NCBI RefSeq assembly: GCF_000239815.1
Contig: NZ_CAFK01000323.1
Location: forward strand, 1 to 64,000
Origin: Bradyrhizobium sp. STM 3843
GTDB lineage: Bacteria > Pseudomonadota > Alphaproteobacteria > Rhizobiales > Xanthobacteraceae
Reading direction: 5' to 3'
Length of the DNA stretch: 64,000 bases
The notes under the pieces are model-generated. The model saw only the letters and a program-made list of their open reading frames with translations. It was not told where the DNA came from and did not search any database. Positions 24,390 to 40,822 of this stretch are shown here, piece by piece; the stretch's first letter is position 1, and each line of letters starts with the position of its first letter. The position numbers and the translations under genes were made by a program.

Positions 24390-25030
24390 GAATGGGCCTC
24401 CCTTTGCTCCCGGCTTCTTGCCAAGTCTTGGGAAGCTTAGCGCCGAACGGAAACGGTTCAAACTCGAAAGACAAAGCGGATTACCTGGTACGGTGGCGAA
24501 TTGCTGGACCGACGCTCGGTCTGCCATCTTCTGCTTCGGGCCATCTCGGACCTTGCGGCCGGCTCCAGCGATGTCTGCCGTTGGGGTTCGACTGGAAGTT
24601 AGCAATCACGGACGAAGGGCGCTTTTGACCCGACGGCGTCGTATCGGTGAATTCATTGCGGTGCGGCTGCAGACGAAGGGAGACGATGCGGTCGTCGCGC
24701 GCCTCGGGTCGGAGTGCGTGGAGATGTGCCGAGCTTTTCCTGCTCCAAGCGTGGCGCCTCGGTCCGGACCGAACTGACCGGTCTCAAACAAGCTGCGCTC
24801 CCGCCTGATGCGGATTCTTAGCGAAGGGCACGGCGCCAATCGGAATGACGAGCGCAGACAAGAGACCAGGCACGACAATGTTCATTGTGGGCATCGTGGA
24901 ACGCTGCTAATGTAGTGTCCTCGCGTGACTGGCGACATCGGATGGAGCACCATCGGGAAGCGCGGGATAACTGCCGTTCGCCTGGGCAATTGGGGATTCC
25001 CCCGTTGAAGCGCTTCTTCTGGAGCTGCCC
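24390..25030. repeat. Gene-free stretch with diverged repeat, copy 1 of the GCTTTTGACCC family
   Basis: No gene is evident. From about 24520 to 24640 the sequence matches three other places in the window (about 26068-26185, 27110-27222, 28020-28150). The shared order is a GGCCxxTxTCGGACC block, a GATGTCTGC block, GGAAGT, and a terminal GCTTTTGACCC (24621-24631). The rest, 24650-25000, shows no recognisable feature. Confidence 0.6.
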
Positions 25031-25432
25031 ATGCTGACGTCGATCAAAATCACCGGCCTTCAAACTTACGGCTATCACGGCCTGTTCGAGGAAGAGCGAA
25101 CGCTCGGACAAAAATTCAGTTTTGATATTACAATCGCGCTGCGAGAGGTCCGGACCCACCTCAGTGATGATCTGGACTCATCCGTGAGATATGATGCCGT
25201 CGTCGATGAAGCAGTGAGAATTGCCGCGTCGGACAAGTTCCAGACACTGGAGGCTCTGGGTGAGACGATTGCCCTGGGTCTGCTGCGACGCTTCATCATC
25301 ATGGATAGCGTTACGGTCGCCGTTGCGAAATCCAGTCCACCGATTGCCCATTCGATAGAACAGGTCGGCGTCCAGGTAAGCCTGCGGCGTGCCGACCTCG
25401 TGCTGGGTCAGGACGAGATCGCCGGAGTCTGA
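25031..25432 (+). CDS. folB: Dihydroneopterin aldolase
   Basis: A 133-residue FolB that converts 7,8-dihydroneopterin to 6-hydroxymethyl-dihydropterin in folate synthesis. Family motifs are present: TGLQTYGYHGLFEEE at residues 8-22, VRYDAVVDEAV, TLEALGETIA and the C-terminal VTVAVAKSSPPI. No other folate genes are close; the usual folP/folK partners are absent. It may be a second, stand-alone copy in a region that otherwise looks accessory. Confidence 0.87.
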   Translation: MLTSIKITGLQTYGYHGLFEEERTLGQKFSFDITIALREVRTHLSDDLDSSVRYDAVVDEAVRIAASDKFQTLEALGETIALGLLRRFIIMDSVTVAVAKSSPPIAHSIEQVGVQVSLRRADLVLGQDEIAGV

Positions 25433-38742: not shown

Positions 38743-38771
38743 TTGACGTCGGTCGTGCGCGGGACTAGGTT
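38743..38771 (+). promoter_or_regulatory. Probable sigma-70 promoter of metX
   Basis: TTGACG at 38743-38748, 17 bases, then TAGGTT at 38766-38771. Transcription would begin near 38778, just before the first stem of the SAM-II aptamer. The -35 box matches well; the -10 box only moderately. Confidence 0.5.
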
Positions 38772-38782
38772 AATGCCTGTTC

Positions 38783-38837
38783 CGTGGTCATTTGAGCCGG
38801 CCGGCTTGCAGCCACGTTAAAAAACTCGCTAAACAGG
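38783..38837 (+). promoter_or_regulatory. SAM-II riboswitch aptamer
   Basis: The stretch carries the SAM-II (metA motif) signature: stem P1 CGTGG (38783-38787)/CCACG (38812-38816), the U-rich loop TCATTTGAG, the CTTGCAGCCACG core, an A-rich linker, and the pseudoknot tail CTCGCTAAACAGG (38825-38837). It stands 105 bases before metX, the usual partner in alphaproteobacteria. It binds S-adenosylmethionine and turns methionine synthesis down. Confidence 0.88.
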
Positions 38838-38887
38838 CCGGGGACAGTTTCGATCCCGGCCGAACCCAAGTTCAGGCCGGGTTTTTT
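38836..38887 (+). terminator. Competing antiterminator and terminator hairpins downstream of the riboswitch
   Basis: GGCCGGG occurs at 38836-38842 and again at 38875-38881, and both can pair perfectly with CCCGGCC at 38855-38861. The downstream pairing is followed directly by TTTTTT (38882-38887), a standard intrinsic terminator. The upstream pairing would prevent it. The 5' arm starts inside the aptamer tail, so ligand binding could free the terminator. Confidence 0.75.
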
Positions 38888-38942
38888 ATGGCCTGATATG
38901 TCACGTGGTTCGGGAGCCTCGGCAAGCGCCGGGGACAGAGAC

Positions 38943-40154
38943 ATGACAGGCCTGACGCCCAAATCGAAAACGCCGCGGCGCGCGATCCCGCCGCAGGAGC
39001 GTTCGCATGAGGTCGATCATCCGAGCTCGCCGGTCGCTGAGTTCGGCATTGATAAGCCGTTGCGGCTCGACTGCGGCGTTGACCTCGCGCCGTTCCAGAT
39101 CGCCTACCAGACCTATGGCGAGCTCAATGCCGACAAGTCCAATGCGATCCTGGTCTGCCACGCGCTGACCGGCGATCAGCATGTCGCCAACCGTCATCCG
39201 ATGACCGGCAAGCCTGGCTGGTGGGAGACCATGGTCGGCCCGGGCCGTCCACTCGACACCAGCCGCTACTTCATCATCTGCTCCAACGTCATCGGCGGCT
39301 GCATGGGCTCGACCGGCCCCGCCTCGCTCAACCCTGCGACCGGAAAGGTCTGGGGCCTGGATTTTCCGATCATCACCATCCCCGACATGGTGCGCGCGCA
39401 AGCGATGCTGATCGACTATCTCGGCATCGAGACGCTGTTTGCTGTTGTTGGCGGCTCGATGGGTGGCATGCAGGTGCTGCAGTGGACGGCGGCCTATCCG
39501 GAGCGGGTGTTCTCGGCGCTGCCGATCGCCTGCGCGACGCGCCACTCGGCGCAGAACATCGCCTTCCACGAGCTCGGTCGCCAGGCCGTGATGGCCGATC
39601 CGGACTGGGATCACGGCCGCTACGCCGACAAGGCAGTGCATCCGCATCGCGGGCTCGCGGTGGCGCGGATGGCCGCGCACATCACCTACCTCTCGGACGC
39701 CGCATTGCATCGCAAGTTCGGCCGCCGCATGCAGGATCGCGAGCTGCCGACCTTTTCCTTCGACGCCGACTTCCAGGTCGAGAGCTATCTGCGCTATCAA
39801 GGTTCGTCCTTTGTCGAGCGCTTCGACGCCAACGCCTATCTCTATCTGACCCGTGCGATGGATTATTTCGACATCGCCGCTGATCATGATGGTGTGCTGA
39901 CGGCAGCCTTCCGCGGCATCGAGACGCGCTTCTGTGTCGTCTCCTTCACCAGTGACTGGCTGTTTCCGACCGCGGAATCGCGCGCGCTGGTGCATGCGCT
40001 CAACGCGTCCAGCGCACGGGTGTCGTTCGCCGAGATCGAGACCGACAAGGGGCATGATGCCTTCCTGCTCGATGTACCCGAATTCTTCGACATCGCCCAT
40101 GCCTTCCTCGAATCCGCGGGCAAGGCGCGCGGGCTGAACGAGCCGGGAGAGTGA
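38943..40154 (+). CDS. metX: Homoserine O-acetyltransferase
   Basis: About 403 residues. Alpha/beta-hydrolase acyltransferase that activates homoserine for methionine synthesis. Signature regions: [14 protein letters not shown], the nucleophile elbow [10 protein letters not shown], and the C-terminal catalytic [22 protein letters not shown] fits the family. Start ATG 38943 (GGGGACAGAG before it) is preferred to ATG 38898, which lies just after the terminator hairpin. Regulated by the SAM-II riboswitch upstream; coupled to metW downstream by overlapping stop and start codons. Confidence 0.94.
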
Positions 40155-40822
40155 TGATGTCGCTGCAACAGGTCCTGCCGTTGAACGGCGCGGCGGCGCG
40201 CGAGGCGCTCGCCTATCGTCCTGATCATCTCCTGATCGCCGAGATGGTCGATCGCGGCTCGAAGGTGCTCGACGTCGGCTGCGGCGACGGCGATCTTTTG
40301 CAGCTCCTCGAGAGCCGCGGCATCGACGGACGTGGCATCGAGCTGTCGCGCGAGGGCGTCAACCATTGCGTCGCGAAGGGCCTTGCGGTGGTGCAGGGCG
40401 ATGCCGACACCGACCTTTCCAACTATCCCGACGACGCGTTCGACTACGTGATCCTGTCGCAGACCCTGCAGGCGACACGCCGGCCGAAGGCGGTGCTCGA
40501 AAATCTCCTGCGCATTGGCCGGCGCGCGATCGTGACGTTTCCGAATTTCGGCTTCTGGCGCATGCGCCTGCAGCTTTTGATCGGCGGCCACATGCCGCGG
40601 ACGGAGAACCTGCCGGCGACCTGGTACGACACGCCCAACATCCATTTCTGCACCATCAAGGACTTCGTCCAGCTCTGCGACGAGATCAACGTCAAGATGG
40701 AGCGCGCGGTGGCGCTCGACTCCTACGCCCGCCCGCTGCGCTTCAATATGCCCTGGTGGTTCTGGAACATGTTCGGCGAGCAGGGGATCTTCTTGCTCAG
40801 CCGGGCCGGGAAGGCGCGGTAG
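40154..40822 (+). CDS. metW: Methionine biosynthesis protein MetW
   Basis: About 222 residues with the class I methyltransferase fold. SKVLDVGCGDGDLLQLLE is the SAM-binding loop; VVQGDADTDL and LSQTLQATRRP follow in MetW order, and the C-terminal NMPWWFWNMFGEQGIFLLSR is characteristic. It works with MetX in methionine synthesis. Starts GTG 40151, ATG 40154 and ATG 40157 overlap the metX stop (TGATGATG); GGGAGA lies just upstream. Confidence 0.93.
   Translation: MMSLQQVLPLNGAAAREALAYRPDHLLIAEMVDRGSKVLDVGCGDGDLLQLLESRGIDGRGIELSREGVNHCVAKGLAVVQGDADTDLSNYPDDAFDYVILSQTLQATRRPKAVLENLLRIGRRAIVTFPNFGFWRMRLQLLIGGHMPRTENLPATWYDTPNIHFCTIKDFVQLCDEINVKMERAVALDSYARPLRFNMPWWFWNMFGEQGIFLLSRAGKAR

Follow-up and report, generated by a model that had tools for sequence, protein, structure and literature searches.

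The stretch of Bradyrhizobium sp. STM 3843 DNA analysed here (64,000 nucleotides, referred to below as the window) contains an apparent SAM-II RNA ahead of metX, and the question raised by this locus is whether the operon is controlled by premature termination within its own leader. We consider it very probable that the RNA encoded at 38774-38887 (on the + strand, as are metX, metW, the ZMP/ZTP riboswitch and all the leader features described below) is a SAM-II OFF switch governing metXW by transcription attenuation, an assignment based on what was observed of its sequence elements, their mutual exclusivity, their conservation and the gene context. The SAM-II identity put forward by an earlier, sequence-only reading was borne out by the Rfam covariance model SAM_alpha (RF00521), which matched positions 38774-38853 over its full length (model positions 1-79 of 79) with 84.8 bits, far above the gathering score of 36. 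P1 (38783-38816) is formed by CGTGG (38783-38787) and CCACG (38812-38816), as indicated by the Rfam structure line and verified pair by pair, plus a T38788-G38811 wobble. The bases that make up the SAM-II pocket, U10-U12, U20-C23 and G42-A47 in 2QWY numbering (PMC3764141), are represented by ATTTG (38790-38794), TTGC (38806-38809) and GCTAAA (38828-38833). The last two are the strands of the P2b pocket (38806-38833), whose 2QWY counterparts are U20-C23 and G42-A47 (PMC3764141), and extension of this placement, derived from crystal-structure contacts, pairs CCGGCC (38797-38802) with GGCCGG (38836-38841) as P2a, in the register of the 2QWY contacts summarised in PMC3764141. P1 and P2a are thus both complementary in the H-type pseudoknot arrangement, and we infer from these sequence features that the aptamer binds SAM.

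The claim that two identical arms compete for a single complement held exactly. GGCCGGG is found at 38836-38842 and again at 38875-38881, where it is followed by TTTTTT (38882-38887), and either copy can pair with the only CCCGGCC, at 38855-38861. This arrangement is unique in the window: the pattern "7-mer, complement, same 7-mer, T6", with a maximum of about 40 nt per step, occurred once on the + strand and not at all on the - strand of the 64 kb. The repeat common to both arms is 9 nt long (CAGGCCGGG, at 38834 and 38873). The first arm had been thought to begin at the last two bases of the aptamer tail; it does overlap the tail, but by much more than that, as the whole P2a 3' strand (38836-38841) is inside it. 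The 5' strand of the antiterminator, GGCCGGG(G) (38836-38843), and the 3' strand of P2a hence use the same six bases, and since the first GGCCGGG contains the complete P2a 3' strand, a ligand-stabilised P2 and the antiterminator are mutually exclusive. This overlap lends support, at the level of sequence, to the proposal that ligand binding blocks the antiterminator. The antiterminator (38836-38861; 3' strand 38854-38861) folds into 7 bp plus one G-U pair with -16.4 kcal/mol. Its CCCGGCC doubles as the outer 5' strand of the intrinsic terminator (38855-38887), and the two structures compete for it. The terminator consists of a stem-loop at 38855-38881, CCCGGCCGAAC-CCAA-GTTC-(bulged A)-GGCCGGG, and the T6 tract at 38882-38887, a conserved stem and U-tract located between aptamer and gene. 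With GAAC paired to GTTC, the stem reaches 11 bp, interrupted by a single bulged A, and folds with about -19 kcal/mol, which makes it stronger than the earlier reading had noted. A simple terminator scan of the window did not pick up the 38855-38887 element, most likely because of that bulged A.

The gene context is that of methionine and SAM metabolism. Downstream of the leader are metX, of the homoserine O-acetyltransferase type (38943-40154; NCBIfam NF001209, 565 bits), and, overlapping it in the same operon, metW (40151-40822; NCBIfam TIGR02081, 255.6 bits), and the leaders of relatives precede either metX or metZ; the divergent gene upstream is chorismate-mutase-like. A longer metX ORF could begin at 38898, and the start is likely to be 38943, the same position as that used by relatives, about 60 nt past the terminator and about 100 nt past P2 and the tail. 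A putative promoter (38743-38771) comprises a -35-like TTGACG (38743-38748), a 17-nt spacer and a -10-like TAGGTT (38766-38771), with transcription probably starting at about 38777-38779. In most of 62 distinct metX leaders with the C-type aptamer (see below), the motif CTTGACG (38742 here) is conserved at a distance of some 37-40 nt ahead of the leader, which suggests that it represents the promoter, presumably at this position; a generic sigma-70 promoter scan of the window found no promoter here. The whole feature accordingly extends from the promoter and P1 (about 38743) to 38887, or to 38896 if the post-terminator arm described below is included. Elsewhere in the window, a ZMP/ZTP riboswitch (24915-24994; RF01750, 59 bits) was found just upstream of an ORF (25031-25432) that, judged by eye from its sequence, is dihydroneopterin aldolase (FolB)-like.

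Constrained folding, in which P1 was forced and the strands of P2 made unavailable, gave a terminator probability of 1.00 at 38881-38887. Folding was performed with a nested model in which the pseudoknot cannot be represented. In the unconstrained fold, the antiterminator predominated (about 0.99-1.0) as the 3' end advanced from 38861 to 38875, and at equilibrium without SAM the terminator was already favoured at 38881-38884, once 38881 had been transcribed. Because the equilibrium without SAM favours the terminator, switching needs the antiterminator to form faster than the terminator, and some leaky termination without SAM is possible according to this model. The decision is probably kinetic, given that P2a is complete only 14-20 nt before the antiterminator strand emerges and that the terminator is the more stable once transcribed; kinetic decisions are usual for transcription attenuators. 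At low SAM, the tail GGCCGGG (38836) would be free as CCCGGCC (38855) emerges, the antiterminator would form and polymerase would pass the T6 tract into metX. When SAM is abundant, the P1/P2 pseudoknot would keep GGCCGG (38836-38841) on CCGGCC (38797-38802) and, with the tail sequestered, CCCGGCC would pair with the second GGCCGGG (38875), transcription stopping at about 38886 with release of a leader some 110 nt long. We infer, again from the arrangement of the sequence, that termination at this locus is SAM-dependent. Two other pairings were discarded. Upstream GCCTGTT pairs with AACAGGC around P1 in some unconstrained folds, but the upstream sequence varies among relatives and the pairing partner may also lie partly before the transcription start. 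The A-rich loop TAAAAAACTCG (38818) could pair with CGGGTTTTTTA (38878), but many relatives carry TTAAACAACTCG instead.

Lack of conservation of the stem in relatives had been named in advance as an observation that would count against the attenuator; the stem turned out to be conserved. RF00521 was present in 196 of the 199 genomes of the window's family and in 227 of 297 of its order, and about 400 SAM-II loci were retrieved for comparison. The tail, CCCGG(C/T)C, GGCCGG and the T-tract are kept in almost all the metX leaders of the family that were listed, and a strong terminator within 190 nt was found in 259 of the 292 distinct leaders of the order versus 37 of 288 within-gene control windows. 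Within the family, covariation was uninformative, as the arms are nearly invariant. Among diverged leaders, pairing of the tail with its native terminator arm came to -12.25 kcal/mol versus -11.43 kcal/mol for arms swapped in from other species, a value as low being reached in 1 of 1000 permutations (83 diverged combinations). When the six-base strands were anchored, the observed covariation was reached by none of 1000 shuffles for P2a and by 9 of 1000 for the antiterminator, and a few compensatory changes are three-way, as at locus L087, with tail GACCGG, loop CCGGTC and terminator arm CCGGTC. These tests ignore kinship among species and involve small numbers, the covariation being modest (32 distinct triples) and contributed solely by more distant leaders, most of them metZ leaders, and we take them as supportive rather than decisive. 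The terminator/antiterminator layout thus hardly varies ahead of metX in the family as a whole, is found a second time in this genome, before metZ, and is maintained in the wider order. Two genomes of the same genus also gave a third, weak SAM_alpha match each (L116, G016:C63:11614-11691, 38.5 bits; L117, G008:C1:1584604-1584682, 33.5 bits), and the usual SAM-II core is absent from both.

The SAM-II copy preceding metZ in the same genome (L001), where metZ encodes an O-succinylhomoserine sulfhydrylase, has the same tail CAGGCCGGGGACAG, CCCGGCC, the arm CAGGCCGG and a T6 tract; its second arm is one G shorter than that of the metX copy, and a G precedes its ATTTG, versus the C (38789) found in the window. 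This position is the equivalent of G8, which in the SAM-II structure joins G42-C23 in a triple adjoining the SAM pocket, a triple that is not among the fully conserved ones (PMC3764141), so that variation there is not in itself new. The listed metX leaders of the family have C at this position and most metZ copies of the family have G; over the order, the share with C was 62 of 83 for distinct metX leaders and 30 of 199 for distinct leaders of the metZ class. A second feature is particular to the metX leaders of the family, in which alone it is conserved: a post-terminator arm, GGCCTGA (38890-38896), complementary to TCAGGCC (38872-38878) on the 3' side of the terminator, whose pairing would loop out the T-tract. 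Among metX leaders, the mean energy of this duplex was -11.0 kcal/mol, versus -7.4 for shuffled and -10.2 for species-swapped arms, only 1 of 500 swap trials being as low. The metZ leaders, taken together, lack this arm. In the metX leaders the arm is transcribed too late to have an effect on termination; our guess is that it holds the 3' arm of the terminator, locking or protecting the read-through RNA. It is tempting, but quite unlikely in our estimation, that C at 38789 and the metX-only arm mark the metX-type leaders of the family as a tuned sub-variant, such that the two met operons would differ in their response to SAM, possibly in a pH-sensitive manner via a C+ G-C triple. Position 38825, three before GCTAAA, differs in a similar way: most metX-type leaders have C there, and metZ-type leaders mostly G or A.

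How else could the arms and the terminator be accounted for? Being short and palindrome-like (GGCC), the repeated arms might have arisen by chance in a GC-rich sequence, yet the arrangement was missing from all 200 random sequences generated with a first-order Markov model (64 kb each) and the arms are conserved over both family and order, so chance is almost certainly not the explanation. It could also be argued that the terminator is constitutive or weakly regulated and that the main effect of the aptamer is on translation or on the stability of the RNA, a mode for which the metA case of S. meliloti is a precedent (PMC9373788); the win of the terminator in the equilibrium fold without ligand and the presence of GGGGA within the P2/tail region (38840-38844) agree with it. 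Unlike in the metA case, however, a clear and conserved antiterminator overlaps P2a here, about 100 nt lie between the tail and the metX start, and the metX genes of many relatives have a GGAGG-type site of their own near the start codon; we hold this view to be very unlikely. Hiding of the ribosome site as the main mode was likewise discarded, with the metX start (38943) far downstream, separate ribosome sites in many relatives and a metX Shine-Dalgarno that is not inside P2.

A broader possibility, which overlaps with attenuation and is compatible with it, is dual action: SAM would set termination, and the arms freed in the read-through mRNA would also affect translation or stability. It would include the post-terminator arm (38890-38896), whose complementarity in metX leaders surpasses that of swapped arms, and an 11-nt direct repeat, GCCGGGGACAG, present in the tail (38837-38847) and just before the metX start (38928-38938); incoherent dual effects of SAM-II RNAs are on record in S. 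meliloti (PMC9373788). However, the start-codon regions of relatives showed GGAGGTC-type sequences in place of the repeat, and the arm, besides coming too late to influence termination, does not occur before metZ. We regard dual action as somewhat unlikely, and SAM-dependent attenuation by P2a occupying the antiterminator strand as the reading to be preferred.

The design itself is not new, and the notion that a terminator is unusual for SAM-II did not stand: in 2005, Corbino et al. (PMC1273637) described putative terminators, located after P2 and ahead of the ORF, for many SAM-II RNAs and took them to suggest an OFF switch, with Bradyrhizobium japonicum among the organisms of their alignment figure, and terminators after SAM-II were reported again in 2007 (Barrick and Breaker 2007, PMC2258182). 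The locus in the window shares with those RNAs the aptamer, the position of the terminator and the OFF logic; the portions of both papers available to us give general terminator predictions and do not spell out the strand shared by P2a and the antiterminator in this metX leader. A regulon study of 2014 placed SAM_alpha before metXW in five Bradyrhizobiaceae genomes (PMC4239095), the same riboswitch, operon and bacterial family as here, and is, in its available portions, a catalogue that does not give the terminator/antiterminator anatomy of SAM_alpha. In Sinorhizobium meliloti, which differs in genus and in having the switch before metZ rather than metX, a terminator likewise comes after SAM-II and is predicted to form once SAM is bound; work from 2022 on this riboswitch and the sRNA RZ found that at high SAM the leader RNA of about 100 nt went up and the mRNA went down (PMC9373788). 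The attenuator design having been known for SAM-II since 2005, the present locus leaves the general picture of SAM-II function unchanged and is a clear, well-conserved example of it, compact in that the ligand-binding pseudoknot and the antiterminator share a single strand of six bases. It would be a good model for measuring SAM-II transcriptional control, which is experimentally less studied than the compact translational SAM-II RNA.
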